Source: Saccharothrix ecbatanensis
GTDB lineage: Bacteria; Actinomycetota; Actinomycetes; Mycobacteriales; Pseudonocardiaceae
Assembly: GCF_014205015.1 (NCBI RefSeq)
Contig: NZ_JACHMO010000001.1
Location: forward strand, 2,604,001 to 2,668,000
DNA length: 64,000 nucleotides
Direction: 5' to 3'
Made by a program: the position numbers and the translations under genes. Below the pieces are notes generated by a model. It was given only the letters and a program-made list of their open reading frames with translations, was not told the origin of the DNA and ran no database searches. This document shows, in pieces, positions 1 to 16,953 of this stretch; positions within the stretch are counted from its first letter, which is position 1; the number at the start of each line of letters is the position of its first letter.

Positions 1-602
1 TCGGCTTCGAACATGATGCTCACCATGTGGCCCAGCGGCGGTGGGCCCTGCACGCCGATGCCCAGCGCCGTGCGGACGCCGCTGCGGCCACCGTCGGCGG
101 CGACCGCGTGGCGGGCGCGCACGACCGTCGACCGGCCGCCGGACTCCACCACCGCCCGCACTCCCGACGCGTCCTGCGTCAGTTCGGTCATGGTGGTGGA
201 GAACCGGACGTCCGCGCCGGGCTGCGACTCGGCGAGTGCGCGCAGCACGACCTCGAACTTGTCCTGTGCGCAGATGTAGGAGTAGGTGGGGCTCTGCGGC
301 GCGTCGGTGGCGATCTCGGCGACCTGGTGGTGGAAGTCGTCGGCGAGCAGCGACGAACCCACCCCCACCGCGAGGCTTTCCTCGCGCGGCAGCCCGACCC
401 GTTCGACCTCGTCCTGGATGCCCCATGCGCGCACCAGTTCCATGGTGCGGGTCGACATCAGCCGCGCCTTGGGGAAGATCGACGTGCCGGCGTGCCGCTC
501 CACCAACACCGAGGACAGCCCGTGCCGGGACGCCTCCACCGATGCGGACAGGCCGACCGGGCCGCCGCCAACTACGAGCACATCGACCTCGACCTCGTTC
601 AT
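1..602 (-). CDS. FAD-dependent aromatic-type monooxygenase (N-terminal part, cut by window edge)
   Basis: The first ~200 residues of a class A flavoprotein monooxygenase (PheA/TfdB/MhpA-like). The protein opens with a Rossmann beta-strand and the FAD motif VVGGGPVG, followed by a glutamate/arginine (VLVER) that should bind the ribose. A later GGRS..RTALG segment is typical of these hydroxylases. Such enzymes use NAD(P)H and O2 to hydroxylate phenolic or polyketide substrates. The ATG at 602 was chosen because the FAD motif begins 11 residues later; the Shine-Dalgarno signal is weak (GGGACG). It is transcribed away from the polyketide operon across a 136-bp gap, so it is probably a tailoring gene of the same cluster (inference). 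The C-terminal half lies outside the window. Confidence 0.85.
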   Translation of the reverse strand, partial: MNEVEVDVLVVGGGPVGLSASVEASRHGLSSVLVERHAGTSIFPKARLMSTRTMELVRAWGIQDEVERVGLPREESLAVGVGSSLLADDFHHQVAEIATDAPQSPTYSYICAQDKFEVVLRALAESQPGADVRFSTTMTELTQDASGVRAVVESGGRSTVVRARHAVAADGGRSGVRTALGIGVQGPPPLGHMVSIMFEA

Positions 603-738: not shown

Positions 739-1485
739 ATGTTCACCGAAGGCTCGGTAGCACTGGTCACCGGCGGGTCGCGCGGCATCGGCCGGGCGGT
801 CGCCCTCGACCTCGCCTCCCACGGCGTGCACGTGGTGGTCAACTACTCGAGATCCGAGCAGCCCGCCAAGGAACTGGTCGCGCAGATCGAGGCGGACGGT
901 GGCAGCGCGAGCACCGCCGGCGCGGACGTGACCGACGAGGCCGCGGTGCGCGCCATGTTCCAGGGTGTGCGCTCCGAGCACGGGCGGCTCGACGTCCTGG
1001 TCACCAGCGCCGGCGTGACCCGTGACCGGTTCATGGTGGTCATGGGCAGCAAGGACTTCCGCGAGACCATGGACGTCAACATGACGGGCACGTTCCTCGC
1101 CTGCCGGGAGGCGCTGCGCATCATGCAGCACCAGCGGCGCGGGGCGATTGTGACGCTGTCGTCGTCCAGCGGCTTGGACGGCGGGTTCCCCGGCCAGACG
1201 AACTACGTCGCGTCCAAGGGCGCGATCATCGCCTTCACCAAGGCGCTGTCCAACGAGGCCGCCCCGCACGGGGTGCGCGCCAACTGCGTCGCGCCGGGGT
1301 TCATCGCCACCGACATGACCAAGTCGATCCCCGCCAAGATCCGCGCGGAGTACGAGTCGCGCATCCGGCTGGGCCGGATGGGCACGCCCGAGGAGGTCGC
1401 GCAACTCGTGACGTTCCTCGCCTCGGACCGCGCCTCTTACATCACCAGCGAGACCTTCGTCGCCAACGGCGGCGGGCTGGCCTGA
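739..1485 (+). CDS. 3-oxoacyl-ACP reductase (FabG-like short-chain dehydrogenase)
   Basis: A 248-residue classical SDR, full length for FabG. It has the NADP(H) motif TGGSRGIG (residues 11-18), a TSAG in place of the usual NNAG, serines 141-144, and the catalytic pair Tyr156/Lys160 (YVASK). The tail (GGGLA) resembles FabG proteins. It should reduce beta-ketoacyl groups on the cluster ACP. GGAG lies 9 nt before the ATG. It is the first gene of the operon; the ACP gene follows after 17 bp. No close paralogue is in the window, so it is the only ketoreductase candidate for the KS-CLF system. Confidence 0.9.
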   Translation: MFTEGSVALVTGGSRGIGRAVALDLASHGVHVVVNYSRSEQPAKELVAQIEADGGSASTAGADVTDEAAVRAMFQGVRSEHGRLDVLVTSAGVTRDRFMVVMGSKDFRETMDVNMTGTFLACREALRIMQHQRRGAIVTLSSSSGLDGGFPGQTNYVASKGAIIAFTKALSNEAAPHGVRANCVAPGFIATDMTKSIPAKIRAEYESRIRLGRMGTPEEVAQLVTFLASDRASYITSETFVANGGGLA

Positions 1486-1502: not shown

Positions 1503-1814
1503 ATGAAGTTGAGCATCGACGAACTGCGCGCCACGGCGGCCGCGCGCCTGCAGACCTGCGCCCAGATCAAGAAGATGATCGTGTCCCGTCTCGACCTGCC
1601 GATCGAGCCGGACTGGATCACCGACGACCAGCCGCTGTTCGGCCGCGGCCTCGAGCTGGACAGCCTCGACGTGCTGGAGCTGTACGTGGCGATCGAGGCC
1701 GAGTTCGGCGTGGCGCTCTACGACAGCGACATGTCGGTGTTCGGGTCGGTGTCGCGGCTTGCCGACCACGTCAACCCGAAGCTGGCCGAGGCGAATTCGC
1801 TGACCGGGGCATGA
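1503..1814 (+). CDS. Acyl carrier protein
   Basis: A 103-residue carrier protein with the phosphopantetheine site LELDSLDVLEL; Ser54 should be modified. The N-terminal ~20 residues extend beyond a typical 80-residue ACP. The Shine-Dalgarno GGGAG abuts the ATG at 1503, so the TTG at 1509 with ideal spacing is an alternative start that would remove two residues. The stop overlaps the ATG of the dehydratase gene (ATGA), indicating translational coupling. It is the only ACP in the cluster, so it probably carries the growing chain through the KS-CLF, ketoreductase and dehydratase. Confidence 0.9.
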   Translation: MKLSIDELRATAAARLQTCAQIKKMIVSRLDLPIEPDWITDDQPLFGRGLELDSLDVLELYVAIEAEFGVALYDSDMSVFGSVSRLADHVNPKLAEANSLTGA

Positions 1815-2284
1815 TGCGCAACGGCACCCGCCCCCGCGAGAGCTCGGCGCTGACCAACGACCAGGTCCGCGAACTGCTCCCGCACCGGTGGCCGATGTTG
1901 CTGCTGGACCGGGTCGAGAAGATCGACGCGGGCGTCAGCGGTGTGGCGATCAAGAACGTCACCGGCACCGAACTGTGGTTCCAGGGCCACTTCCCCGAAG
2001 AGGCCGTGCTGCCCGGCGTCGTGGTCATCGAGGCCATGGCGCAGTTGTCCGGTGTCATCTTCTCCCTGGCCGGCTCCAGCCGGATCAGTTACCTCGCCGG
2101 GGTGCGGTCGATGCGGTTCCGCCGGCCGATCGTGCCCGGCGACCAGATCGTGCTGTCCGCACGACGCACCGCCGGCGGTGCGGGGTTCTGCGAGTTCAAG
2201 GTCGAGGCCAAGGTCGACGGCCAGGTCGCCGCCGAAGGCTCGCTCACCATCGCCGATCCCAGCAGCTCACTCGGAAGGGCCTGA
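1811..2284 (+). CDS. 3-hydroxyacyl-ACP dehydratase (FabZ/FabA-like hot-dog)
   Basis: A 157-residue hot-dog protein close to FabZ in length. It shows the early HRWPMLLLD segment, the catalytic histidine in FQGHFPEE (His60) and the catalytic glutamate in VVIEAMAQ (Glu74). The expected reaction is removal of water from 3-hydroxyacyl-ACP to give a trans-2-enoyl chain. It overlaps the ACP gene by 4 bp. Together with the SDR and KS-CLF it makes a chain-reducing type II system; no dedicated enoyl reductase of FabI type is seen, so double bonds may be kept (inference). Confidence 0.9.
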   Translation: MMRNGTRPRESSALTNDQVRELLPHRWPMLLLDRVEKIDAGVSGVAIKNVTGTELWFQGHFPEEAVLPGVVVIEAMAQLSGVIFSLAGSSRISYLAGVRSMRFRRPIVPGDQIVLSARRTAGGAGFCEFKVEAKVDGQVAAEGSLTIADPSSSLGRA

Positions 2285-2292
2285 CAAACACC

Positions 2293-3366
2293 ATGGATTC
2301 GCTGACCTCGCCGCTGGCCGCCGTCCACCCGGAGGGCACCGAGTACGGCGCCGCGCAGGAAGCCCACGTGGCTTTGCGCTACACCACGCTCGATGAGGAG
2401 TACACCGCGATCCGGGAGCGCGCCGCGGTGCTGGACCTGTCCGGTTCGCGCGTGCTGGAGGTCTCCGGCTCCGACGCGACCGACTTCATGCAGCGGGCGC
2501 TGGCCCGCGACGTGGAGTACCTGACCTCGGAGCGCTGCATGACGAGCCTCGTCCTGGACGAGGAGGGCCTGGTCGTGGACCAGGTCGTCGTGTGGGGCCG
2601 TGAGGACGGGATGCTCGTGGAGAGCTCCGTGGGCGGCGGCGCCCGGCTGTTGGAGCACCTGCGGTCCGTCGCGGGCGAGGACCGGGTCGAGATCAAGGAT
2701 CTGACCGGCGAGCAGGTCCTGCTGGGCCTGGAAGGGCCCTACGCGTGGGGTGTCGTCGGCCGCCTGGTCGACGGTGAGCTCGCCGCGCTGCCGTTCGAGT
2801 CCGTCGTGGACACCACCTGGGACGGCGTGGACGTGCTGTTCGCCCGCACCGGTGTCACCGGCGAGTACGGCTACAAGGTGCTCGTGCCGCACGACCAGGC
2901 CGCGACGCTGTGGGCCAAGGCCGTCGAGCAGGCCACCCCGGCGGGCCACGAGGCGCTGGAGCTGGCGATGCTGGAGGTCCGCCAGCCCACCCACCACGAG
3001 CACGCCGACGGCGCCGACGTCCTCACCATGGGCGCGAACTGGCTGGTCGACATCACCAAGGAGTCGTTCATCGGCCGGGACGCGGTGCTGGCCGCGTTCT
3101 CCGGTGGCGCGACCCGCCGCACCGTCGGGTTCTCCGGCGGCGACACCGTCCCCGCGGCCGGCACTCCGGTCACCGTGGGCGGCGAGCAGGTCGGCGTCGT
3201 CGTCCACGCCGTGCACAGCATCGGTCTCGGCGCGCCCCTGGGGTTGGCGCGCCTGGACGCCGACCTGGCTGCCGCCGGACTGCGGCTGACCGTCGGCGAC
3301 GCCGACGTCACCACCCTCACGAGCCCTTACGTCACGCCCAAGAGCTGGAGCACCCCGATCATCTGA
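2293..3366 (+). CDS. GcvT-like aminomethyltransferase/folate-binding protein
   Basis: A 357-residue protein of the glycine cleavage T-protein/YgfZ superfamily. It shows the N-terminal beta-barrel segment (VLDLSGSRVLEVSG, DFMQRALARDVEYL), the folate-fold segment with TGVTGEYGYKVLVP (residues ~193-207), the conserved LEVRQP region, and the C-terminal barrel starting near the KESFIGRDAV segment. These resemble canonical GcvT features (SLTGEDGYE, EAGL..YG, K..FIG), but other GCV genes are absent here. The T-protein normally moves a methylene from aminomethyl-lipoyl to tetrahydrofolate. Its task in a polyketide operon is unknown; a one-carbon transfer or demethylation on a pathway intermediate is speculation. 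The ATG has only a distant GGAAGGG upstream. Confidence 0.8.
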   Translation: MDSLTSPLAAVHPEGTEYGAAQEAHVALRYTTLDEEYTAIRERAAVLDLSGSRVLEVSGSDATDFMQRALARDVEYLTSERCMTSLVLDEEGLVVDQVVVWGREDGMLVESSVGGGARLLEHLRSVAGEDRVEIKDLTGEQVLLGLEGPYAWGVVGRLVDGELAALPFESVVDTTWDGVDVLFARTGVTGEYGYKVLVPHDQAATLWAKAVEQATPAGHEALELAMLEVRQPTHHEHADGADVLTMGANWLVDITKESFIGRDAVLAAFSGGATRRTVGFSGGDTVPAAGTPVTVGGEQVGVVVHAVHSIGLGAPLGLARLDADLAAAGLRLTVGDADVTTLTSPYVTPKSWSTPII

Positions 3367-3393: not shown

Positions 3394-5679
3394 ATGGCGC
3401 TGCGACCGGTCGTCATCACCGGGGTCGGCGTGATCTGCGCGATCGGCCGTGACCCGCAGGAGTTCTGGCAGCGGCTGGCCGCCGGTCGCAGCGGGATCAC
3501 CGAGATCGCCGACGACGCGTTCCACGCGTTCGACGCCCGTTATGCCGGGCAGGTGCCCGACGAGTGGATCGACGGGCAGTCCGGTCCCTCCGACGCGCAC
3601 CTGGACCGAACGTCCCGGTTGGCGCTGGTCGCGGCCCGCCAGGCGATCGCCCAGGCGGGACTGTCCGAGCAGGACCTCGACCAGGACCGCTACGGGCTGG
3701 TGCTGGGCAAGTGCCAGGCCACCCCGGCCGCGGACGGCGGCTACCAGCCGATGCACGCGACCGGTGACATCGTCGCCGGTGTGCTGGGCATGCGGGGTCC
3801 GCGGATCCTCGTGTCCACCGCGTGCGCGGCCGGCGGCAACGCGGTCGGGCTCGCCAAGGACAAGATCCTCACCGGCGAGGCCGACGTGGTCCTCGCCGGC
3901 GGGGTGGACCCGCTGCTGTTCGGCACCTACGCCGGGTTCGCCGGGCTGCACGCGCTGAGCGACCGGCCCTGCGGCCCCTACAGCCGTTCGGACGGCCTGA
4001 ACCTCGGCGAGGGCGCGGCGTTCGTCGTGGTCGAGCCGCTGGACCGGGTCCTGGCGCGGGGCGGGACGCCGCTGGCGGAGGTCGCCGGCTACGGCCTGTC
4101 CGCGGACGCCCACCACGCCACGGCGCCCGACCCCACGGGTCGCGGCGGTGTCAGCGCGATGCGCCGCGCCCTGGCCGACGCCGGCCTGACGTCGGACGAC
4201 GTGCACTACGTCAACGGGCACGGCACCGGCACCCCGGCGAACGACGCCATGGAGATCAAGGTGATGCGCACCGTGTTCGGTGACCGCGCGCCGCAGGTCC
4301 CCACCAGCAGCATCAAGTCGTTCCTCGGCCACACCCTCGGCGCCGCCGGCGCGGTCGAGGCGGTGGCGAGCGTGCTGGCGCTCAAGCACCAGACCGCGCC
4401 GCCGACGATCGGGTTCGAGGGCCGCGAGGCGCCGTCCGGGCTGGACTTCGTGCCCGACACGGCACGGCCGATGCCGATGTCGGTGGTGGCGTCGAACAAC
4501 TACGCCTTCGGCGGCAACAACGTGTCGCTGCTGCTCACCTCACCCCGTGACACCGGCGCGGACACGGCCGACGCGGACACCGCGGGCGGGTTGCCCGAGA
4601 TGGACGTGGTCATCTCCGGCCTCGGCCCGGTCGGCCCGCTGGGCGTCGGCATCGCGGAGGTCTCCGAGGCCCTCGCCACCGGCCGCCGCCAGGTGGGCGG
4701 GCAGCCGTCGCTGACCGGCCGCACGTTCGCGCCCCGGTCGCTGTGGCGGCACATGAACAACCTGTCGCGCATGGCGATCGCCGCGTCGCGGCTGTCGCTG
4801 GAGGACGCCGGCCTGCAGCTGTCCCGCGCCGAGGCCGAGAACGTGGGCGTCATGTTCGCCACCGCCGCGGGGTCGTGGGAGAGCACCGACGGGTTCGACG
4901 AGAGCGTCCTGGCCAACCCCAACAAGCCCGCCGTGCTGAGCTTCTCCAACGTGGTGCTCAACGCCACCGGCGGCGCGGTGTGCCAGACGCTGGGCCTGCG
5001 CGGGCCGACGACGACGATCTGCAACGGCGGCGCGTCGGCGTCCATCGCGCTGGACTGCGCGGTGGAGACCATCCGCGCGGGCAAGGCCGACGTGGTGCTC
5101 GTGGTCGCCGCCGACGAGGCGGCGCTCGCCGCCGAAGGTCTCGACGTCACCCCCTACGACCGGGTGAACAACGGGTCGGTGCCCGCGTCCGGAGCGGTGG
5201 CGCTGGTCGTGGAGTCGGCGCGGCACTGCGCCGAGCGCGGCGGCACGCCCTACGCGAAGGTCGTGGGCGGCGGCCACGTCGGCGGCGCCGGCGAGGACGA
5301 GCGGGTCCTGGTGGCGCGCAGCCTGGCGAAGGTCGACACGGAAGGCGTGCGGCTGGTGTTCGGCGCGGCGGTCGGCGACGAGCACGACGCCGACGAGGCC
5401 GCGGCGGTGTTCGACGCGGTCCCCGACGCGCTGCTGACCGCCACCACCGGTTACACCGGCGACTGCCGGGCCGCGACCGGCGGGTTGAACCTGGCGCTGG
5501 CCGCCCTGGCGGTCCGCGACGGCGTCGCACCCGCCGTGGCCGGCCTGACCACCCCGCAGGTGGGCGGCCTGTCCGGGTACGTCACGAAGTCGGAGCTCGA
5601 CGCACCGGTGGACCGGACGCTGGTCCTCAGCGCCGCCGCCGGGTCGGTGCGGGGCGTGACCGTGCTGGGCGCACCGTGA
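3394..5679 (+). CDS. Ketosynthase-chain length factor fusion (KSalpha-KSbeta in one chain)
   Basis: A 761-residue protein made of two consecutive FabF-type thiolase folds. The first half (~1-390) has the full catalytic triad: Cys144 in STACAAGG, His276 in NGHGTGT and His313 in FLGHTLGAAG. A short acidic linker (TGADTADADTAGG) follows. The second half (~400-761) keeps the fold (SVPASGAVALVVESA, ADVVLVV), but the position of the catalytic cysteine is Gly546 in the run ICNGGASAS and the two histidine motifs are not recognisable. That pattern is expected of a chain length factor. KSalpha and CLF are normally separate, translationally coupled genes; here they are one polypeptide. A good AAGGAG lies 7 nt before the ATG. 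The partners KR, DH, ACP and AT are in the same operon. Confidence 0.9.
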   Translation: MALRPVVITGVGVICAIGRDPQEFWQRLAAGRSGITEIADDAFHAFDARYAGQVPDEWIDGQSGPSDAHLDRTSRLALVAARQAIAQAGLSEQDLDQDRYGLVLGKCQATPAADGGYQPMHATGDIVAGVLGMRGPRILVSTACAAGGNAVGLAKDKILTGEADVVLAGGVDPLLFGTYAGFAGLHALSDRPCGPYSRSDGLNLGEGAAFVVVEPLDRVLARGGTPLAEVAGYGLSADAHHATAPDPTGRGGVSAMRRALADAGLTSDDVHYVNGHGTGTPANDAMEIKVMRTVFGDRAPQVPTSSIKSFLGHTLGAAGAVEAVASVLALKHQTAPPTIGFEGREAPSGLDFVPDTARPMPMSVVASNNYAFGGNNVSLLLTSPRDTGADTADADTAGGLPEMDVVISGLGPVGPLGVGIAEVSEALATGRRQVGGQPSLTGRTFAPRSLWRHMNNLSRMAIAASRLSLEDAGLQLSRAEAENVGVMFATAAGSWESTDGFDESVLANPNKPAVLSFSNVVLNATGGAVCQTLGLRGPTTTICNGGASASIALDCAVETIRAGKADVVLVVAADEAALAAEGLDVTPYDRVNNGSVPASGAVALVVESARHCAERGGTPYAKVVGGGHVGGAGEDERVLVARSLAKVDTEGVRLVFGAAVGDEHDADEAAAVFDAVPDALLTATTGYTGDCRAATGGLNLALAALAVRDGVAPAVAGLTTPQVGGLSGYVTKSELDAPVDRTLVLSAAAGSVRGVTVLGAP

Positions 5680-6446
5680 CCACCGCGGCGGATCCCGTGA
5701 CGGCCCCGGCGGCCGCTCCCGGGACGCCGTTCGACGTGGCGGAGACCGACCGGTTGCTGACCACCACCCGGTCGGTGCGCCGCCGGCTGGACCTGGACCG
5801 GCCGGTTCCCCGCGAGATCGTCGAGCAGGCCCTGGAAGTGGCGGTGCAGGCGCCGACGGCCAACGACCAGCAGAACTGGCGGTGGCTGGTCGTCACCGAG
5901 CAGTCGGTGAAGGACGAGCTGGCCGCCGTCGTGCGGCACGCGTGGAACTTCCACCAGCGCGAGGTGCTGACCAGGTCGGGGCGGCGGCGCAACAACGCGC
6001 AGAACCAGCGCAACAACGCCTCCGCCGCGACCCTGGTCGACATCCTGGCCAAGGTGCCGGTGCTGGTGATCCCGTGCGTGCTGGGCCGCCCGCCGGACAT
6101 CGGCGCGATCGACGAGGAGTACGTGCGCACCGCCGCGGGCCGGCGCAACGTCGGCACCTGGCAGGAGGACGTGCGGCTGGGCGCCATGCGGGCCAGCAAC
6201 TTCTACGGCTCGATCTTCCCCGCCGTGTGGTCGTTCCAGCTCGCGCTGCGCAGCCGGGGCCTGGGCTCCACGATCACCGGCCTGCACCTGCCGTTCGAGA
6301 AGCACGTCGGCGCCCTGCTGGGCATCCCCTCGGGGGTCACCCAGGTGTGCATGGTGCCGGTGGCCTACACCGTCGGCACCGACTTCCGCCCCGCGAGCCG
6401 GCACCCCGCCGCGGAGCGCACGCACTGGGAGAGGTGGCAGGGATGA
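5676..6446 (+). CDS. Nitroreductase-family FMN oxidoreductase
   Basis: A 256-residue nitroreductase-fold protein. The N-terminus carries the FMN-contact segment TTRSVRRRLDL and QAPTANDQQNWRWLVV, and the C-terminal part has LRSRGLGSTITG.H and a conserved GIPSGV turn. The GTG start overlaps the KS-CLF stop (GTGA). Family members reduce nitro, quinone or enone groups, or oxidise heterocycles, using FMN and NAD(P)H. In this operon it could act as an enoyl reductase or as a late tailoring oxidase; the sequence does not decide. An asparagine/arginine-rich insert (RRRNNAQNQRNNAS, residues ~106-119) is unusual. Confidence 0.85.
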   Translation: MTTAADPVTAPAAAPGTPFDVAETDRLLTTTRSVRRRLDLDRPVPREIVEQALEVAVQAPTANDQQNWRWLVVTEQSVKDELAAVVRHAWNFHQREVLTRSGRRRNNAQNQRNNASAATLVDILAKVPVLVIPCVLGRPPDIGAIDEEYVRTAAGRRNVGTWQEDVRLGAMRASNFYGSIFPAVWSFQLALRSRGLGSTITGLHLPFEKHVGALLGIPSGVTQVCMVPVAYTVGTDFRPASRHPAAERTHWERWQG

Positions 6447-7714
6447 CCCCCACAGGGACGGGTTCCGGCACGGGCACGGCACGGGTCGACGTGGTCGTCG
6501 TCGGCGGAGGGATCGCGGGCGCCTCGGCGGCGGCGAACCTCACCGCGAACGGCCTGTCGGTGCTGCTGCTGGAGAAGCAGGACACCTACCAGGACATCGT
6601 GCGCGGCGAGTGGATCGCCCCGTGGGGCATGCGCGAGGCGCAGCTGCTGGGCGTGGAGGACGCGTTCGGCGTCGGCGGCGCCTGGGAGATCCGCGAGTGG
6701 GTCCAGTGGGACGAGACCGTCGCCCCCGACGACGCCGAGGTCGTCGACATGACCCGCTTCGTGCCCGGTGTCGGCGGGCCGATGTCGTTCCCGCACCACA
6801 CGGTGTGCGAGCTGATGGTCGAGCAGGCCCACGGCAACGGCGGCCAGATCGTGATGGGCGTCCGCAAGGTCCGCGTCACGCAGGGCACCGAACCGGTGGT
6901 GACCTACCACACCGACGCGGGCGAGCACGAGGTGCGGGCGCGGATCGTGCTGGGCGCGACCGGCCGCGGCTGCACGGTGGGCCGCCAGGTCGGCGTCACC
7001 ATGGAGACCTCGGTGCACCACTGGGGCGGCGGGGTGCGCGTGTCGGGCCTGGACGACTGGCCGATGGACGTGCAGGCCATGGGCACCGAGGCCGACAAGA
7101 TGTTCATGGTGTTCCCGCAGGGCGAGGGCGTCGCCCGGCTCTACATCAACTTCCCCACCACCAACCGCGACCGCTACCGCGGGCCCAACGGCATGGAGCG
7201 GTTCATCGGCGACTTCGAGCTGGAGTGCCTGCCCGACCGCGGCAAGTCCGTCTACGCCGCGGCGGTGCCGCTGGGGCCGCTGAAGCTGTGGCCGTCGGTC
7301 AAGGCCGTGCCGGAGCGCCCGCCGGTGGTGGACGGCGTGGTGCTGATCGGCGACGAGGCCGGCGCCGCGGACACCGTGCTGGGCACCGGGTTGTCGTCGG
7401 CGCTGCGCGATTCCCGCGCGGTGTGCGGCATCCTGCTCGGCGGCGACGACTGGTCGCCCGCCGCGTTCGCCCCCTACCTGGCCGAACGCGACTTCCGGAT
7501 GGGGCGGCTGCACTTCGGCGCGGAGATCGTCGCCAAGCTGCACTGCGAGTTCGGCCCGGAAGCGGCCGAGCGGCGCCGCCGCGTCCGCGACCTCATGAAC
7601 GACAACTTCGCCGCGCAGGTCACCGGCCTGCTCAACATGGTCAGCCCCGAGGACGTGCCCGACTTCGGGTTCAGCGAGTTCTTCGCCGAACGGCTTTTCA
7701 GGGAGACGGTGTGA
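6443..7714 (+). CDS. FAD-dependent oxidoreductase/monooxygenase
   Basis: A 423-residue flavoprotein of the p-hydroxybenzoate hydroxylase/geranylgeranyl reductase fold. It opens with VDVVVVGGGIAGASAA (FAD pyrophosphate site), followed by LLLEKQ, and carries the second FAD motif VVLIGDEAGAADTVLGTG (residues ~300). The HHWGGGVR region around residue 193 lies where substrate enters in relatives. It overlaps the nitroreductase gene by 4 bp (ATGA) and the next hydrolase gene by 4 bp (GTGA). Likely roles are hydroxylation or epoxidation of the pathway product; the following epoxide-hydrolase-like gene would fit an epoxidation step (inference). Confidence 0.85.
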   Translation: MTPTGTGSGTGTARVDVVVVGGGIAGASAAANLTANGLSVLLLEKQDTYQDIVRGEWIAPWGMREAQLLGVEDAFGVGGAWEIREWVQWDETVAPDDAEVVDMTRFVPGVGGPMSFPHHTVCELMVEQAHGNGGQIVMGVRKVRVTQGTEPVVTYHTDAGEHEVRARIVLGATGRGCTVGRQVGVTMETSVHHWGGGVRVSGLDDWPMDVQAMGTEADKMFMVFPQGEGVARLYINFPTTNRDRYRGPNGMERFIGDFELECLPDRGKSVYAAAVPLGPLKLWPSVKAVPERPPVVDGVVLIGDEAGAADTVLGTGLSSALRDSRAVCGILLGGDDWSPAAFAPYLAERDFRMGRLHFGAEIVAKLHCEFGPEAAERRRRVRDLMNDNFAAQVTGLLNMVSPEDVPDFGFSEFFAERLFRETV

Positions 7715-8595
7715 GCGCCAACAACAGCTTGATCAACGCCCGCGCGCAGGTCAACGGGGTCGAGATCGCCTACGTCGACCAGGGCGAGGGCGACCCGGTG
7801 CTGCTGCTGCACGGCTTCCCCGACTCGCACTACCTGTGGCGCCACCAGATCCCGATGCTGGTAGACGCCGGGTTCCGGGTCATCGCGCCGGACCTGCGCG
7901 GGTTCGGCGAGTCGTCCAAGCCGCAGGAGATCGACGCCTACTCGATGCGCAACATCGTCAACGACGTCGTGGCGCTGACCATGCAGCTGGGCATCCAGAA
8001 GACCCACGTGGTGGGCCACGACTGGGGCGCCGCGGTGGCGTGGATGTACGCGTTCCTCATGCCCCGGCGGGTGGACCACCTCGCGGTGCTGTCGGTCGGG
8101 CACCCCGGCGTGTTCGCCACGCAGACGGTGCAGCAGCGCGCCGCCAGCTGGTACATGCTGCTCTACCAGTTCCCCGGCGTCAGCGAGCAGTTGTTGCGCC
8201 GCAACGGGTGGCGGCTGTTCAAGGAGATCATCGGCGGCGAGGGCGACCACCAGCGCTACCTGCGCGAGCTGGCCAAGCCGGGCGCGTTGACGGCGGGCCT
8301 GAACTGGTACCGGGCCAACCGGTCCCCGGAGGCCGAGCTGCGGGTGGAGGGCAACTTCCCGCCGGTGTTCGCGCCGACGCTGGGCATCTGGTCCAGCGGC
8401 GACAAGGCCCTGCTGGAGGACGGCATGGTCGGGTCGGCGAAGTTCGTCAAGGGCCCGTGGCGCTACGAGCGCGTCGAGGACGCCAGCCACTGGATCCCGC
8501 TGGACCAGCCCGAGCTGGTCGGCAAGCTGCTGCTGGGGTTCCTGGGCACCGAGCAGCCCGCGGCCGCGGCGGTCAGCCGCCGCCGCCGCATGTAG
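7711..8595 (+). CDS. Alpha/beta hydrolase, epoxide hydrolase-like
   Basis: A 294-residue alpha/beta hydrolase. The oxyanion motif LLLHGFPDSHYLW is at residues 31-43, the nucleophile elbow GHDWG places Asp104 as nucleophile (as in epoxide hydrolases and haloalkane dehalogenases, not serine esterases), and the catalytic histidine is in EDASHWIPLDQP near the C-terminus. The GTG start overlaps the upstream flavoenzyme stop. The Asp nucleophile argues against a thioesterase. It could open an epoxide made by the upstream flavoenzyme. The C-terminal tail is arginine-rich (SRRRRM). Confidence 0.85.
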   Translation: MSANNSLINARAQVNGVEIAYVDQGEGDPVLLLHGFPDSHYLWRHQIPMLVDAGFRVIAPDLRGFGESSKPQEIDAYSMRNIVNDVVALTMQLGIQKTHVVGHDWGAAVAWMYAFLMPRRVDHLAVLSVGHPGVFATQTVQQRAASWYMLLYQFPGVSEQLLRRNGWRLFKEIIGGEGDHQRYLRELAKPGALTAGLNWYRANRSPEAELRVEGNFPPVFAPTLGIWSSGDKALLEDGMVGSAKFVKGPWRYERVEDASHWIPLDQPELVGKLLLGFLGTEQPAAAAVSRRRRM

Positions 8596-8626: not shown

Positions 8627-9541
8627 ATGATCGGGTATCTGTTCCCGGGCCAGGGCACGGTCCGCGTCGGCATGGGCGGCTGGCTGCGCCGCGACCCGGC
8701 GGGAGCGCGGGTGTTCGCCGCCGCCGACGACGTGCACGCCGACCTCGACGGCGGGCTGGCGGAGCTGTGCGCGCGCGGCCCGCTGGAGCGGCTGATCAGC
8801 ACCGACGTGGCCCAGCCGGTGGTGACCGCGTGCAACCTGGCGGCGTTGGAGGTGCTGCGGTCGCGGGGACACGTCCCGGACATCGTCGCCGGGCACAGCG
8901 TCGGCGAGCTCAGCGCCCTGTGCGCGGCGGGCGTGCTCGACGTGGAGGCCACGCTGCGGCTGGTCGCGGTCCGCTCCCGGCTGATGGCGGCACTGCCCGA
9001 CGTGGGCGGCATGACCGCGGTGCTGGGTCTCACCGAGCAGCGGGTGGCGGAGTTGGCGGCGGAGGCGTCGGCGCCCGGCGAACCCGCCGTGGTCGGCCTG
9101 GTCAACGGACCCGACAACATCGTCGTCTCCGGTGCGCTGCCCGCGTTGCAGCGGGTCGCGGACCTCGCCGTCGACGCCCGCAAGGTCGTGTCGCTGAAGG
9201 TCGGCGGCGCGTTCCACTCGCCGTTGATGGCGGGCGCCGTGGACGACTGGGCGGCGGCGGTGCGGGCGACACCGATGCGGCCACCGGCGGTGCCGGTCGT
9301 CCCGAACGTCACCGCCGAGCCCACCACGGACCTGGCCGAGATCACCGACGCGCTGATCGCCCAGCTCACCGGGCGGGTGCGGTGGGCCGAGACGGTGCTG
9401 CGCCTGACCGACGTGGACACGTGCGTGGAGGTCGGCGACAGCAAGGTCCTCACCGGGCTGCACCGCGGTGTCGGGGGCCGGTGCCTGACCATGGCCGACC
9501 CCACCGCGGTGCGCAGGCTTCGGGCGGAGTCGGTGGCATGA
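8627..9541 (+). CDS. Malonyl-CoA:ACP acyltransferase (FabD-like)
   Basis: A 304-residue FabD-type acyltransferase: the PGQG motif (residues 7-10), the nucleophile Ser91 in AGHSVGE, and the GGAFHSPLM segment that contains the second catalytic histidine and the substrate-selecting FHS motif typical of malonyl transferases. Standard length for FabD. GGAGGA lies a few bases before the ATG. Clustered type II PKS operons often borrow FabD from fatty acid synthesis; here a dedicated copy is present, so the pathway is self-contained with KS-CLF, KR, DH and ACP. The stop overlaps the next ATG (ATGA). Confidence 0.9.
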   Translation: MIGYLFPGQGTVRVGMGGWLRRDPAGARVFAAADDVHADLDGGLAELCARGPLERLISTDVAQPVVTACNLAALEVLRSRGHVPDIVAGHSVGELSALCAAGVLDVEATLRLVAVRSRLMAALPDVGGMTAVLGLTEQRVAELAAEASAPGEPAVVGLVNGPDNIVVSGALPALQRVADLAVDARKVVSLKVGGAFHSPLMAGAVDDWAAAVRATPMRPPAVPVVPNVTAEPTTDLAEITDALIAQLTGRVRWAETVLRLTDVDTCVEVGDSKVLTGLHRGVGGRCLTMADPTAVRRLRAESVA

Positions 9542-9996
9542 GGCGGTGGGGCAGCGCCGCGGTCGCGCTCGACGGGCTGACCGCGCCCCGGCAGCTGGTG
9601 TGGCCGATGCGGCTGGAGGACGTCTACTCCCGCGAGGAGCGGCTGCGGTCCGCCGCGGGCCGGACCCTCCAGCACTGGGCGGGAAGGCTGGCGGCGAAGT
9701 ACGCGGTGCTGTCGCTGCTGGGCCTGCCCGCGACGGCACTGCACCTGGGCCGGGTGGAGGTGCTGCCGCAGCCGTCGGCGATGTGCGCCCGCACCACGGC
9801 GTGCACGCACGGCCACCCGCCGTGCGTGCGGCTGCTGGACGGGCTGCCGAAGGACCCCGACACGGCCGACACCCTCGGCGGCGGGCGGATCGGCGTGTCC
9901 ATCAGCCACACCGCGGACCTGGCGTTCGCGGTGGCCCTGGTCTCGGCGCGGCTGCCCGAGGACGACGTGGTGGAGGCGGTGGGCGGGTGGAACTGA
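9538..9996 (+). CDS. Degenerate AcpS-type phosphopantetheinyl transferase
   Basis: A 152-residue protein that resembles holo-ACP synthase in length and in two segments: HWAGRLAAKYAVLSLLG (residues 46-62), the counterpart of the AcpS motif RFAAKEA, and GVSISHTADLAFAVALV near the C-terminus. The usual metal-binding glutamate of AAKEA is replaced by Tyr55, and the N-terminal GIDIVEI motif with its metal-binding aspartate is not recognisable. This copy may therefore be inactive, bind metal differently, or work as a subunit with the second AcpS-like protein (11821-12351). A Cys/His stretch (MCARTTACTHGHPPC) is an insertion. It overlaps both neighbours. Confidence 0.7.
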   Translation: MRRWGSAAVALDGLTAPRQLVWPMRLEDVYSREERLRSAAGRTLQHWAGRLAAKYAVLSLLGLPATALHLGRVEVLPQPSAMCARTTACTHGHPPCVRLLDGLPKDPDTADTLGGGRIGVSISHTADLAFAVALVSARLPEDDVVEAVGGWN

Positions 9997-11027
9997 CCGA
10001 CGCGGACCAGTCGGAGGGCGACGTGACCGACGTGGACCGGACCGACGTGGACCGGACCGACGTGGACCGGACCGATGCGAGCCCGACCGAGGGCGGCGGC
10101 TCCCGCGCGGAGCCGGGCGGGAAGGACACCGAAGGCTCGACGGGGCTGGACCTGGCGGGGCTGGACCTGGCGGGGGTCGCACGACGGCACATGGCCGCCT
10201 GGAGCGCCGCCGACCCGGCCGCGATCACCGCGACGATCGCCTCGTTCGACGACCCCGACACCCCCGGCCCCCTGACCGGCGACGACCTGGCCGGGCACGT
10301 CGCCTCGGTCCTGGCCCGGTTCGCCGAGCTGAAGCTGGAAGCCGACGAACCGGTCGTCGCCGGCGGCACGGCCGTGGTGACGTGGACGTTGCGCGCGGTC
10401 CACCGCGACGCCTACCTGGGGATGCCCGGCACGGGCGGCGAGGTCGAGGCGTCCGGTGTGGACGTGCTGACCGCCCGGGACGGCGCGGTGCACGTGCGCC
10501 GGGTGTTCGACCGGCTCACGGTGGCCGAGGCGCTGGGCTACACCCCGCGGTTCGTGCCCGCCGCCGACGGCGAGCGCGAGTTCGGCGTCAGCTCCCGCAC
10601 CCCGGCCCGCGCGTCGTCCGCCGGCACCCCGGTGGGCGCGCTCGTGCTGACCTGGCTCGACGTCCGCGACGACGCCGAGGCGGCCGACGTGGACCTGCTC
10701 AGCGTGGAGATCGTCAAGAGCCTGCGCGCCTCCAAGGGTTTCCTCGGCGCGACCAGCCTGGACGTGGGGCTGCGCAAGTACACCCTGACGGCGTTCGAGT
10801 CGGTCGACGCGGTGCGCGCCGTGCACGCCCGCCCCCACCAGCGGGCGCTGCGGAGGTTCTTCCGCAGCGGCCTGTGCACCGGGGCGTCGACCGGGGTGTG
10901 GGTGCCGCTGCGGGACAGCCTCTACACCCGCTGCCCCGACTGCGGGTCGGTCGTGACGCTGGACCGCGAACACCCCGACAAGTCCTGCGACTGCGGGTGG
11001 ATCCCCATCCCCGGCGCCCTCTTCTGA
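9987..11027 (+). CDS. SnoaL-like/ABM-like/zinc-ribbon fusion protein
   Basis: A 346-residue protein with a GTG start at 9987 that overlaps the upstream gene by 10 bp; GTG at 10023 is an alternative. The first ~60 residues are a low-complexity linker with three VDRTD repeats. Residues ~64-185 look like a SnoaL/NTF2 fold (ARRHMAAWSAADPAAI...GEVEASGVDVLT). Residues ~215-310 look like a dimeric alpha/beta barrel of the antibiotic-biosynthesis-monooxygenase type (VLTWLDVRDDA..FLGATSLDVG..YTLTAFESVDAV). The C-terminus has Cys316-x2-Cys319 and Cys334-x-Cys336, a zinc ribbon or rubredoxin-like knuckle. I do not know this arrangement; cyclisation or cofactor-free oxidation of the chain is a plausible job. 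Domain calls are from pattern only. Confidence 0.65.
   Translation: MELTDADQSEGDVTDVDRTDVDRTDVDRTDASPTEGGGSRAEPGGKDTEGSTGLDLAGLDLAGVARRHMAAWSAADPAAITATIASFDDPDTPGPLTGDDLAGHVASVLARFAELKLEADEPVVAGGTAVVTWTLRAVHRDAYLGMPGTGGEVEASGVDVLTARDGAVHVRRVFDRLTVAEALGYTPRFVPAADGEREFGVSSRTPARASSAGTPVGALVLTWLDVRDDAEAADVDLLSVEIVKSLRASKGFLGATSLDVGLRKYTLTAFESVDAVRAVHARPHQRALRRFFRSGLCTGASTGVWVPLRDSLYTRCPDCGSVVTLDREHPDKSCDCGWIPIPGALF
10032..10076 (+). repeat. Three in-frame 15-bp tandem repeats
   Basis: The unit GTGGACCGGACCGAC occurs three times in a row (last base changed in the third copy) and encodes VDRTD-VDRTD-VDRTD in the N-terminal linker of the fusion protein. The preceding GTGACCGAC is a partial unit. 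It looks like recent slippage expansion. Confidence 0.9.
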
Positions 11028-11041
11028 TCTGGAGTGTCCCC

Positions 11042-11824
11042 ATGACTGCCTTCACCTTCGAGCACATCACGGGCAAGGAGTCGCGGCCCGCGGTCGTGTT
11101 CATGTCCGCGCTGTTCGCCGGCGGCTGGATCTGGGACGACCCGGTGCGGCGACTCACCGCCGCCGGGTGGCCGGTGCTGCGCACCGTGGAACCGATCTGC
11201 GCGGTGGACAGCCGCATCGCCGGGTCCATCGAGCGCCTGGGCGACGAACTGCTGGCGGCGTGCGACGAGGCCGGTGTCGACGAGATCGTGGTGTGCGCGA
11301 ACTCGCTGGGCGGGCTGGTCGCGATCGACCTGGCGGGCCGGTTCCCGCAGCGCGTCAGGGGCATCGGGGTGTCCGGCGCGCCGGGCCTGACCCCGGACCC
11401 GAACGTGGGCCTCAACGTGGACAGCCGCGCCAGCGTGCAGCCCTCGGGCCCGGAGTTCGAGGACATCATGATGAAGGCGCTGTTCCACGGGCCGGCGCTG
11501 TTCACCCGCGAGCAGCTCACCGAGACCGCGGACCTGCTGCGCCAGGGCCCGGCGATGCTGTCGATGGCCCGCAGCATCCGCGCCACCCGCACCTACCAGG
11601 TCGAGCCCGCCCTGGACCGCATCACCTGCCCGTCGCTGTACGTGTGGGGCCGCCACGACCGGATGACGCCGATCGACCCGTGGGAGACGGTGATCCCGGG
11701 CCGTGCGGACACCGAGTTCGTCGCGGTCGAGGACTGCGGGCACATCCCGATGATCGAGGCGCCCGAGGAGTACTCCGACCGGTTGCTGGGATTCCTGGAC
11801 CGGGTGGCCGGGGCGCCGGTGTGA
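11042..11824 (+). CDS. Alpha/beta hydrolase (serine type)
   Basis: A 260-residue alpha/beta hydrolase. The nucleophile elbow is VCANSLGGLV with Ser88; the first glycine of GxSxG is alanine. The acid is probably the Asp in VWGRHDRMTP and the histidine that in EDCGHIPMIEAP. This is a different subfamily from the Asp-nucleophile hydrolase at 7711. A type II thioesterase or product-releasing hydrolase role is plausible in this operon. GGAG lies 6-8 nt before the ATG. The stop overlaps the GTG of the second phosphopantetheinyl transferase (GTGA). Confidence 0.85.
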   Translation: MTAFTFEHITGKESRPAVVFMSALFAGGWIWDDPVRRLTAAGWPVLRTVEPICAVDSRIAGSIERLGDELLAACDEAGVDEIVVCANSLGGLVAIDLAGRFPQRVRGIGVSGAPGLTPDPNVGLNVDSRASVQPSGPEFEDIMMKALFHGPALFTREQLTETADLLRQGPAMLSMARSIRATRTYQVEPALDRITCPSLYVWGRHDRMTPIDPWETVIPGRADTEFVAVEDCGHIPMIEAPEEYSDRLLGFLDRVAGAPV

Positions 11825-12351
11825 TCGACACGCTCTTCGGCGGTGTCGCGGGTGGACGGCCGGTGCTGTTCGGCGTGGACATCGTCGACATCAGCCGCGT
11901 CACCCGCGCCATCGCCTACAGCGGCCCCGCCTACCTGCGGCACGTCACCACGCCGCAGGAGCACGGGCTGCACCCCGACGAGGAGCTGGCCGCCGCGGCG
12001 AGCGTCGCGGTGAAGGAGTGCTTCATCAAGGCGGTCGGCGGCCGGCCGCCGGGGTTCAGCTGGCACGACTTCCGGGCCCTCGGCGACGTGGACCACGCGG
12101 CCCGGGAGTGGGCCGGGCCGCTGCTCGCGGGCGCGGCCCCCGAGGTGGAGAAGACCACCGGCATCCCGTTGGGCAACACCATGGCCTACAGCGTGCACGG
12201 CGCCAGCCACGCCGCCGCGCTGACCCGGTTGGCGCCGGGGCGGCCCGCGGCGGACGTGGTCGGCGAGGCCCGCTGGGGTTGGGCCGGCGACCGGGTCGTC
12301 GCGCTCGCGATCCTGACCGCTACCACCGATGAGGAGCAACGATGGCCGTGA
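11821..12351 (+). CDS. Holo-ACP synthase (AcpS-type phosphopantetheinyl transferase)
   Basis: A 176-residue AcpS-family protein, longer than the usual ~120-130. It retains both metal/CoA motifs: FGVDIVDISRV with Asp20 and AVKECFIKAVGG with Glu66 and Lys65. The C-terminal segment MAYSVHGASHAAALTRLA replaces the usual VSISH..YA strand. It should transfer 4'-phosphopantetheine from CoA to Ser54 of the cluster ACP. It is the intact counterpart of the degenerate AcpS-like gene at 9538. It overlaps the upstream hydrolase by 4 bp and the next gene by 10 bp, and its 3' end supplies the GAGGAG ribosome site of that gene. Confidence 0.85.
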   Translation: MIDTLFGGVAGGRPVLFGVDIVDISRVTRAIAYSGPAYLRHVTTPQEHGLHPDEELAAAASVAVKECFIKAVGGRPPGFSWHDFRALGDVDHAAREWAGPLLAGAAPEVEKTTGIPLGNTMAYSVHGASHAAALTRLAPGRPAADVVGEARWGWAGDRVVALAILTATTDEEQRWP

Positions 12352-13418
12352 ACCAGACCCTGGACCAGACTCCCCGACCCGCCGCCGACAACGAGATCCG
12401 GGTCGAGCCGGGCCAGTCGGTCCAGGAGGCGGTGGACCGCGCCGGCCCCGGCGCGACCGTGCTCCTCGCGGAGGGCACCCACAGCGGCAACGTCGTCGTC
12501 ACCCACCCCGGTGTGACGCTGAAGGGCGCCGGCGCCGGCCGCACGATCCTGGTGCCGGGCCCGGTCGCGCCGTCCACCGTGGCGCCGCTGCACGACGCCC
12601 CGCCGGACGTCGTCAGCGGCATCGTCGTGCACAGCGACACCGGCATCGGCGAGGTGGCCGTCGAGGGCCTGACCGTGCGCGGGTTCTCCGGCGCCGGGGT
12701 CTACGCCCACACCGTCACCGGTCTGCGGCTGCACGACGTGGAGGCCGTCGACAACGTCGTGTGGGGCCTGTACGTGCGGGAGTCCTCCGGCATCGACGTG
12801 TCGCGCTGCCGCGGCGAGAACAGCCGCTACGGCGGGATCGCGTTGGCGTTCTGCGCCCGCGCCGACGCCGTGGTCGCGGACAGCGAGTGCGTCGGCAACG
12901 CCTTCGGCGTGTTCGTCGACAACTCCAGCCGCGCCAGGGTGCTGCGCAACCGCTGCCACGGCAACGCCGCCGGGATGCTGCTGCTGCACCAGGTGTACCC
13001 CGGTGAGCCCGAGGGCGGCGTGCGCGACTGCCTGGTGTCCGACAACGACGTGTACGACAACACGCTCGCGGCGGGCGGCGACGACCCGGAGGCGCTGGGC
13101 GCGGCCGGTCCGCCGATCTCCGGTGTCGGTATCGCGCTGATCGGCACCGAGCGGGTGTCGGTGGTGGGCAACCGGCTGCACGGCAACCAGCCGGGCGGTT
13201 TCTCCGTCATGCCCGCCGCGCTGGTCGTCGATTCCTCCGCGGAATGGGGCGGATCGGACGCCGTGGACAATTCCCTGGAGTGGAATACGATCACCGGGAA
13301 CAGCCCGCTCGACGTGCGCATCAGCGTCGACGTGACACGCCAGCGGCTGGCCAACAACGTCGTGGGCGCGTCCGAGCCGGAATCCCTGTCGGGTCGCGCC
13401 GCGGAAGGGACCCAGTGA
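12342..13418 (+). CDS. NosD-like right-handed parallel beta-helix protein
   Basis: A 358-residue protein with repeated beta-helix rungs: IRVEPGQSVQEAVDRAGPGATVLLAEG at the start (written here only as a landmark at residues ~19-45), then many strands of the type GVYAHTVTGLRLHDVEAVDN, GIDVSRCRGENS, AVVADSECVGNAFGVFVDNS. This is the NosD/pectate-lyase superfamily. There is no signal peptide, so it is probably cytoplasmic, unlike periplasmic NosD. The fold serves polysaccharide lyases, epimerases and some cyclases; none of their catalytic residues can be assigned by eye. It lies directly before the ABC exporter genes with a 4-bp overlap (GTGA). Confidence 0.75.
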   Translation: MAVNQTLDQTPRPAADNEIRVEPGQSVQEAVDRAGPGATVLLAEGTHSGNVVVTHPGVTLKGAGAGRTILVPGPVAPSTVAPLHDAPPDVVSGIVVHSDTGIGEVAVEGLTVRGFSGAGVYAHTVTGLRLHDVEAVDNVVWGLYVRESSGIDVSRCRGENSRYGGIALAFCARADAVVADSECVGNAFGVFVDNSSRARVLRNRCHGNAAGMLLLHQVYPGEPEGGVRDCLVSDNDVYDNTLAAGGDDPEALGAAGPPISGVGIALIGTERVSVVGNRLHGNQPGGFSVMPAALVVDSSAEWGGSDAVDNSLEWNTITGNSPLDVRISVDVTRQRLANNVVGASEPESLSGRAAEGTQ

Positions 13419-14395
13419 CCTCGACGCCGATGGCTTCCCCGCCCCGGACCTCCACCGCGCCGCCCGCCTTGCAGTGCACCGGGCTGCGCAAGCGCTACGG
13501 CGACAAGACCGTGGTCGACGACGTGGGCTTCCACATCGACAGCGGCGAGGCGTACGGGCTGCTGGGTCCGAACGGCGCGGGCAAGACCACCACGATCTCC
13601 ATGCTCGTCGGGCTGCTGCGCCCGGACGAGGGTTCGGTGCGGGTGGGTGACGCGGTCCTGTCCGACGACCCCGCCGTCGCCAAGTCCCGCATCGGCTACG
13701 TGCCGCAGGAGATCGCCCTCTACCCGGAGCTGACGGCGCTGGAGAACCTGCGGTTCTTCGGCCGGCTGCACGGCATCCCCCGGCGCGCCCTGGCGGGGCG
13801 CATCGACGAGGTGCTGGAGATGGTGGGGCTGCGCGACCGCGCGAAGGACCGGGTGGAGACCTACTCCGGCGGCATGAAGCGCCGCTGCAACATCGCCGTG
13901 GCGCTGCTGCACGAACCGTCGCTGCTGATCCTGGACGAGCCGACCGTGGGCGTGGACCCGCAGAGCCGCGTCGCGATCCTGGACGGGGTGGAGGCGCTGG
14001 TCGCCGCCGGGATGAGCCTGCTCTACACCTCCCACTACATGGAGGAGGTCGAGCGGGTCTGCACCCGGGTCGGGATCATCGACCACGGCAAGCTCGTCGC
14101 GGAGGGCACCAAGGAGGAGCTCGTCGCCGGGCTGGGCAGCGCCGACCGGATCGAACTGGTCCTCGACGGCGACGTCACGCGCGCCGCGGACACGCTGCGC
14201 GGCATCGACGGGGTGAGCGAGGCCATCGTCACGGGCTCGCACTCGGTGCGGCTGCTCGCCACCGGCGGACGGCACCTGCTGCCGGCGCTGATCGGCGCGC
14301 TGCCCGGCATCGCCGCGGTGACGGGCGTGGAGGTGGTGGAACCCGACCTGGAGGCCGCGTTCCTGCACCTGACCGGCAAGTCGCTGAGGGACTAG
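13415..14395 (+). CDS. ABC transporter ATP-binding protein (drug exporter type)
   Basis: A 326-residue ATPase with Walker [11 protein letters not shown]-loop [10 protein letters not shown], signature YSGGMKRR, Walker [14 protein letters not shown] and the H-loop in TSHYMEEVE, followed by the ~90-residue C-terminal domain of DrrA/NatA-like exporters. The GTG start at 13415 overlaps the NosD-like gene (GTGA). With the two following ABC-2 permeases it forms an exporter, most likely for the cluster product and self-protection (inference from position). Confidence 0.95.
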
Positions 14396-14410
14396 AGGGC
14401 GGACGCGGAC

Positions 14411-16802: not shown

Positions 16803-16953
16803 CGTCTTCCCGGCGGCTGCGGTCCCCGCCGGGGACCTGGTGCTGCGACCTGCGCGTGCACCCGTCGACGAGTCCCGGTCATGCCGCGCCCCGGCGTTTC
16901 GCCCCGGGCCGGTGTGGTCGGGCGGGGGGTGGCGGGTGCGGGAGGATCCGCGG

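Follow-up and report, generated by a model that had tools for sequence, protein, structure and literature searches.

What kind of synthase is built around a single protein that carries both a ketosynthase (KS) and what looks like its chain length factor (CLF)? The question is raised by a gene at positions 3394-5679 of a 64,000-nucleotide stretch of the genome of the soil actinomycete Saccharothrix ecbatanensis (contig NZ_JACHMO010000001.1, positions 2,604,001 to 2,668,000), hereafter called the window. A preliminary description, made from the sequence alone, had read this gene as a KS-CLF fusion of 761 residues, in departure from the norm of separate KS and CLF genes, at the core of a reducing type II polyketide synthase (PKS) operon. 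We find that the fusion is real and consider it a covalent KS-CLF at the core of a reducing PKS that works iteratively with dissociated partners, a reading to which we give a probability of roughly 65%.

3394-5679, plus strand: fused KS-KS' protein; residues ~1-385 active KS, ~386-402 linker, ~403-761 inactive KS fold

The gene forms one frame without an inner stop, and a ribosome-binding-like sequence precedes its ATG (by eye). The first half carries the full ketosynthase catalytic set and the second half none of it: in the alignment, C144, H276, K308 and H313 correspond to G546, A658, T685 and D690, and Cys144, His276, His313 and Gly546 lie exactly where the preliminary description had placed them. 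A Pfam scan matched the first half to PF00109 and PF02801 and the second half to PF00109 at 55.5 bits, with PF02801 at 19.1 bits, under the cut-off of 20.8. An AlphaFold2 model computed from 49 sequences reached a predicted local distance difference test value (pLDDT) of 92.9 and a predicted template modelling score (pTM) of 0.94, and its least confident ten-residue block, 391-400, lies inside the linker. The top Foldseek match of the whole chain was the KS-CLF didomain of PfaC (6riw), the sole entry covering both halves among the 50 rows listed. By fold, the second half resembled FabF-type KSs and the KS chains of KS-CLF pairs equally well, and CLF chains were not singled out in a listing that gives one best chain per entry. 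Residues and fold thus bear out a KS with an inactive partner; the second half takes the label 'chain length factor' from its position.

The protein search for other KS-KS fusions that the preliminary description had proposed returned 5521 hits at E ≤ 1e-10 among 8000 candidates scored. Among the best 120 matches listed, full-length fused relatives at 56-76% identity occur in many genera, including Saccharothrix, Lentzea, Actinokineospora, Nonomuraea, Streptosporangium and Actinoalloteichus, and all 17 loci of a genome search encode residues 1-760 or 1-761 of the fused protein. Since independent full-length copies exist in many genomes, a misassembly or the stop or frameshift between the halves that had been named as a possible flaw is excluded. 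The fusion is real yet not unique: our protein searches show that KS-KS proteins made as one chain are frequent in both Actinomycetota and Bacillota. The entries listed bear general names (beta-ketoacyl-ACP synthase family protein, 3-oxoacyl-ACP synthase, hypothetical protein).

For alignment, listed hits of 690-870 residues were grouped by list order into group 1 (88 proteins with at least 56% identity to the window protein, which is itself present twice) and group 2 (28 proteins, 43-47% identity); a 'wide' set of 114 proteins came from the listing of a search with the fused protein of Streptomyces piniterrae. C144, H276, K308 and H313 are kept in all 230 proteins (88/88, 28/28 and 114/114), and none of the 116 proteins in groups 1 and 2 has a cysteine at position 546. 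In a 49-row KS tree, built without characterised reference KSs, the first halves of groups 1-3 and the second fused protein of the S. ecbatanensis genome form one clade (99/97) that lies outside this genome's separate KS/CLF pairs; support for a grouping of the second halves of groups 1-3 is 85/69. These relationships suggest an old fusion. A tree of 31 fused proteins places the window protein with group 2 (100/100); with its weak root and three long branches, this tree suggests, rather than establishes, one fusion event.

One-chain KS-CLFs are already known from PfaC and HglC of multidomain lipid synthases (PMC3098273). PfaC shares with the window protein the order KS then CLF (18% identity), but DH (dehydratase) domains follow its didomain in a multidomain synthase with tandem acyl carrier proteins (ACPs), whereas the window protein ends after its second half and stands alone with discrete partners and one ACP. 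The operon resembles highly reducing type II PKSs in its discrete ACP, ketoreductase (KR) and DH; in place of their two-protein KS/CLF heterodimer it has a single frame. Compared with the ishigamide pair Iga11-Iga12 (6kxd), in which KS and CLF are separate proteins, the fused protein is one chain of 761 residues, its KS half is shortened in one segment, and it has a GcvT-like partner. Among solved structures, the first half is closest in sequence to the KS pair of 9s5h, chains B and C (258.6 bits, 38% identity over 377 aligned positions), which likewise are two chains, of 413 and 412 residues, versus one chain here. Single-chain KS-KS proteins beside FabG-, ACP-, FabZ- and GcvT-like genes, as in the window, occur in Priestia megaterium (plasmid pBM500) and S. 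piniterrae, and we know of no product of either cluster. The Priestia cluster is lean; in the wider fused set the KS-half segment is longer than in the window. No description of a stand-alone fused KS-CLF, or of its GcvT neighbour, turned up in a search of open-licence literature, with most subscription journals outside it. We also found no link to a known product, in agreement with the preliminary description. A covalent KS-CLF outside multidomain synthases of the polyunsaturated fatty acid (PUFA) type would fix the pairing at 1:1 and offer a scaffold for chain-length studies and for the engineering of type II systems; because the cassette is widespread, the product of one such cluster, once solved, might account for many orphan clusters.

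Pfam and NCBIfam scans confirmed the KR, FabZ-type DH, ACP, acyltransferase (AT) and AcpS assigned to the operon, and added genes that the earlier inventory had overlooked: the GcvT-like, nitroreductase, flavin adenine dinucleotide (FAD), epoxide hydrolase, second AcpS-like, beta-helix and ABC genes. The genes around the fusion are as follows.

1-539, minus strand: aromatic-ring hydroxylase, divergent to KR (PF01494 and PF21274)
739-1485, plus strand: FabG-like short-chain dehydrogenase/reductase, the KR (PF13561, 215 bits; TIGR01830, 278 bits, under the cut-off of 297.75)
1503-1814, plus strand: ACP (PF00550, 38.5 bits; LDSLD serine motif by eye)
1811-2284, plus strand: FabZ-type DH (NF000582, 144.7 bits, cut-off 113; TIGR01750, 140.6 bits, under the cut-off of 155.15)
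2293-3366, plus strand: GcvT-like protein (PF01571, 130 bits; Gln97 at the canonical catalytic Asp position in alignments)
5676-6446, plus strand: nitroreductase-family flavoprotein (PF00881, 64.7 bits; start overlaps the KS stop)
6443-7714, plus strand: FAD-dependent oxidoreductase of the monooxygenase / geranylgeranyl-reductase superfamily (PF01494, 71 bits; TIGR02032, 70.6 bits, below cut-off)
7711-8595, plus strand: epoxide-hydrolase-like alpha/beta hydrolase (best solved relative epoxide hydrolase 5ng7, 202 bits; GHDWG nucleophile motif by eye)
8627-9541, plus strand: malonyl-type, FabD-like AT (PF00698, 129 bits; TIGR00128, 208 bits, under the cut-off of 260.9)
9538-9996, plus strand: degenerate AcpS-like protein (a), phosphopantetheinyl transferase (PPTase) motif partly lost (PF17837 only, 16.8 bits, under the cut-off of 27)
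9987-11027, plus strand: SnoaL-like protein with a C-terminal cysteine-rich end (PF07366, 44.7 bits, cut-off 28.4; scanned as 9984-11024, start codon and zinc-ribbon-like end by eye)
11042-11824, plus strand: alpha/beta hydrolase, candidate release thioesterase (PF12697, 53.9 bits)
11821-12351, plus strand: AcpS-type PPTase, AcpSb (PF01648, 24.5 bits, just under the cut-off of 25; NF000832, 34.8 bits, below cut-off)
12342-13418, plus strand: beta-helix protein with NosD-like repeats (PF13229, 48.5 bits; PF05048, 33.3 bits)
13415-14395, plus strand: ABC transporter ATPase (PF00005, 118 bits; start by eye)
14411-15586, plus strand: ABC-2 membrane protein (PF12698, 101 bits)
15583-16737, plus strand: ABC-2 membrane protein (PF12698, 127 bits)
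16840-19974, plus strand: large SARP/AfsR-type regulator, BTAD-AAA-TPR (PF03704, 80 bits)

Several neighbouring genes overlap by 4 bases. Four imperfect inverted repeats and no direct repeats precede KR. The AcpS reading of the degenerate protein at 9538-9996 was made by eye; its HWAGRLA-K stretch is conserved in 24 homologous stretches.

Gene content, gene order, residues, predicted fold and conservation were observed as given here, and it is from them that we infer every reaction and the product type. The fused protein would act as a covalent pseudo-heterodimer whose first half condenses, the dead second half serving as dimer partner and, by analogy with CLF, as part of the acyl tunnel. AcpSb would activate the ACP, the only one among the 18 cluster proteins scanned, and AT would load malonyl; the fused KS would then elongate, with KR reducing and FabZ dehydrating each beta-keto unit. 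Because no dedicated enoyl reductase was recognised in the operon, most double bonds of the chain are expected to remain, save for any that the nitroreductase-like flavoprotein may reduce. The reduced or polyene chain of the preliminary description would thus fit the gene set, in which KR and FabZ stand without a recognised enoyl reductase. Release is probably the task of the alpha/beta hydrolase at 11042-11824. Tailoring would fall to the FAD enzyme, epoxide hydrolase and SnoaL-like protein, most simply by epoxidation and opening, and the product would leave the cell through the ABC set.

The same structural match to PfaC could instead point to a specialised fatty-acid or membrane-lipid synthase, PUFA-like, rather than to a secreted small molecule, and a fused-KS locus of Lachnospira eligens has AccD, FabZ, MCAT and PlsX nearby. 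We regard this as unlikely: the operon row has one ACP, discrete proteins, a SARP-type regulator and an ABC-2 transporter, and no dedicated enoyl reductase was recognised. The cluster is scattered, with 13 carriers (own included, one of the 13 being group 2) among 397 genomes of the order, a spread that fits a secondary metabolite. In the relatives set, 6 of 60 genomes carry it, all six, own included, of the same genus.

A cyclised or aromatic polyketide would arise from the fused KS-CLF if the SnoaL-like protein were a cyclase. This polyketide-cyclase-fold protein had been overlooked when the operon was said to contain no aromatase/cyclase; apart from it the statement held, as no other cyclase or aromatase domain was found by Pfam among the 18 cluster proteins scanned. 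SnoaL folds serve other reactions too. Of 24 close loci, 23 have the protein (in the remaining one, L008, the contig stops before its position), and fused-KS loci on Streptomyces plasmids carry annotated ester cyclases, one of them confirmed as SnoaL by Pfam. KR and a FabZ-type DH are nevertheless both in the operon, and the window SnoaL-like protein has no match at E 0.01 in group 2 locus L043 or Priestia locus L059, so that we consider a cyclised or aromatic product quite improbable.

Cispentacin biosynthesis employs a KS whose partner is not a CLF (PMC10698177), and a single-extension cyclising system like this KS-CYF pair (AmcF-AmcG) would use the second half to help close a small ring after one C2 extension. 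As in the window, AmcF-AmcG pair a KS with a non-catalytic partner in a type II-like set, and CYF is also described in that paper as lacking some CLF features; unlike the window, they are separate proteins, perform a single extension and work with the AmcH ligase. The first half aligns end to end with the NCBIfam AmcF model (249 bits alone, 267 for the whole protein), which at 369 positions is as short as the first half itself, and ACP and DH weakly resemble AmcB (31.5 bits) and AmcE (72.8 bits), both below cut-off. The AmcF score is, however, under its cut-off of 325 and under the 327.7 bits of the fabF model, and DH scores 144.7 bits on the FabZ model versus 72.8 on AmcE. AmcH occurs in each of the three biosynthetic gene cluster types that PMC10698177 defines, whereas no adenylate-forming AmcH-like domain was found among the 18 cluster proteins scanned. 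A search of 296 genomes of the phylum with the AmcF model (E ≤ 1e-75) gave 0 matches, as did the control genomes, and is hence uninformative. Overall, a cispentacin-like system appears very unlikely.

Several observations also weigh against the iterative, reducing PKS that we prefer. From residue 105 to Cys144, group 1 proteins have 39-46 residues (39 in 78/88) and group 2 proteins 31-44 (40 in 23/28), while the wide set mostly has 58 (107/114), which makes the catalytic half about 19 residues shorter in this segment than in other fused KSs; the matching stretch of the second half is near-constant (54 in group 1, 47-54 in group 2, 55-56 in the wide set). The stretch before the KS active-site Cys sits at the dimer interface near the acyl tunnel in KS structures, and its shortening could alter the tunnel so that the polyene analogy fails. 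Given the shorter segment and this general knowledge of KS structures, the window family seems to have lost interface structure from its active half and the active-site Cys from the partner, if that was the direction of change. The wide set has Cys at 546 in 66/114 proteins and His at the 690 position in 89/114, so the partner half is not equally degraded in all fused proteins. The SnoaL-like protein leaves room for a cyclised product, and both the reactions and any chain-length control by the second half are predictions. Finally, tblastn with five GcvT queries (E 0.01) found no GcvT in 20-26 kb each of six other fused-KS loci: L047 of the same genome, Streptomyces plasmids L060 and L062, Lachnospira L061, Pseudalkalibacillus L063 and Nonomuraea gerenzanensis L064. 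GcvT is therefore not required for a fused KS as such and marks some of its uses.

Where it occurs, the GcvT-like gene is tightly linked to the fusion. Its match ends 14-80 bases before the fused-gene match in 24/24 close loci, the 6 genomes of the relatives set that have the cluster carry both genes and, at the thresholds used, none of the 60 has just one, and it adjoins the fused KS in group 2 locus L043 and group 3 loci L041 and L042 (S. piniterrae). The window protein scores 189 bits (34%) against Priestia GcvT versus 78.5 bits against L057, the best other homologue in its own genome, and an L057 query gave no match in the Priestia locus at E 0.01; for these reasons the cluster GcvT-like proteins look like a family of their own. 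PF01571 identifies the GCV_T fold of the glycine cleavage T protein, whose catalytic Asp we take to be Asp96 of Thermotoga maritima, the second D of the IIDD motif. This Asp is absent in all 10 cluster proteins aligned (Gln in 6, Glu in 2, Leu in 1, Ile in 1), namely those of the window, L059 (Priestia), L041, L042, L043, L001, L003, L012, L015 and L044, of which 5 belong to the 24 close loci; the alignment rows of L057, L058, the T. maritima fragment and L063 are not counted. At the same position L057 has Asp and L058, a weaker homologue in the same genome, His; all 10 cluster proteins retain the Glu of the xxEYGY motif. With the catalytic Asp position lost, canonical aminomethyl transfer is unlikely, and we conclude from these sequences that the GcvT fold has been reused in a PKS operon.

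Annotation of the P. megaterium QM B1551 plasmid pBM500 gives the order PPTase, MCAT, FabG, ACP, FabZ, glycine cleavage T barrel protein and KS family protein, with a thioesterase nearby. This lean set (MCAT, KR, ACP, DH, GcvT, KS-KS', PPTase) may show the core, and because the GcvT-like protein is retained in it, the protein is probably part of the PKS core rather than a tailoring enzyme. The KR-ACP-DH-GcvT-KSKS cassette, common to Actinomycetota and Bacillota, must for that reason be old or have moved between phyla. We tentatively suggest, as a possibility we rather doubt than favour, that a GcvT-fold protein without the usual catalytic Asp was recruited as a core part of a reducing covalent KS-CLF PKS, where it would act on or bind the ACP-carried chain and add a step new to type II PKSs, which could be release, shaping of the chain or one-carbon chemistry. 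The contact of this protein with the ACP arm might parallel that between T protein and the lipoyl arm of H protein. The conserved neighbour points to a PKS component with possibly new chemistry, testable with few proteins.

Gene order was compared in 24 related loci, 17 from the genome search and 7 further ones, counted without a check for shared species. All 17 operon genes are collinear in 16/24; in the remaining 8, only end genes of the row are missing, where the compared DNA or contig ends. Upstream of KR, related loci have a SARP-like partial match (32-38% identity), whereas the window has the divergent aromatic-ring hydroxylase there and its SARP downstream. The nitroreductase, the AcpS-like pair and the alpha/beta hydrolase are common to group 1 and L043, the one group 2 locus studied; additional in group 1 are the epoxide hydrolase, the transporter, the FAD enzyme and the SnoaL-like protein. 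No FabZ match was found in L043, which has a MaoC-type protein at the opposite end of the row.

The two AcpS-like proteins (9538-9996 and 11821-12351), one with an intact-looking motif and the other without Glu and the second Lys (by eye), are like an active/inactive PPTase pair; both are present in 23/24 close loci (the contig of L008 ends before them) and in L043. The genes at 12342-16737 for the beta-helix protein, which has no obvious signal peptide by eye, the ABC ATPase and the ABC-2 proteins resemble a NosDFY set. The second fused KS-KS of the S. ecbatanensis genome (L047, 10224-12530, at ~1798224-1800530) lies beside two separate KS genes and a KR, near two P450-like genes and a SnoaL-like protein (by eye), and Streptomyces plasmids hold a similar set of KS, KS, fused KS and KASIII. 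Group 3 locus L041 combines the fused KS and GcvT-like protein with a PALP pyridoxal phosphate enzyme, an ornithine cyclodeaminase-family protein and a 704-residue GNAT-domain protein, and its product is possibly diaminopropionate joined to a reduced chain. On Pseudalkalibacillus plasmid L063, the fused KS stands beside an HAD-IIIC family protein, a second ACP and an E2-type acyltransferase, a neighbour set of the kind seen in tetronate clusters; a 360-residue gene before this fused KS, GcvT-like by length, was rejected, as Pfam assigned it to alpha/beta hydrolase only. In the large replicon of L. eligens (L061), the fused KS accompanies ACP, 3-oxoacyl-ACP reductase, FabZ, MCAT, AccD and PlsX, possibly a dedicated lipid pathway.
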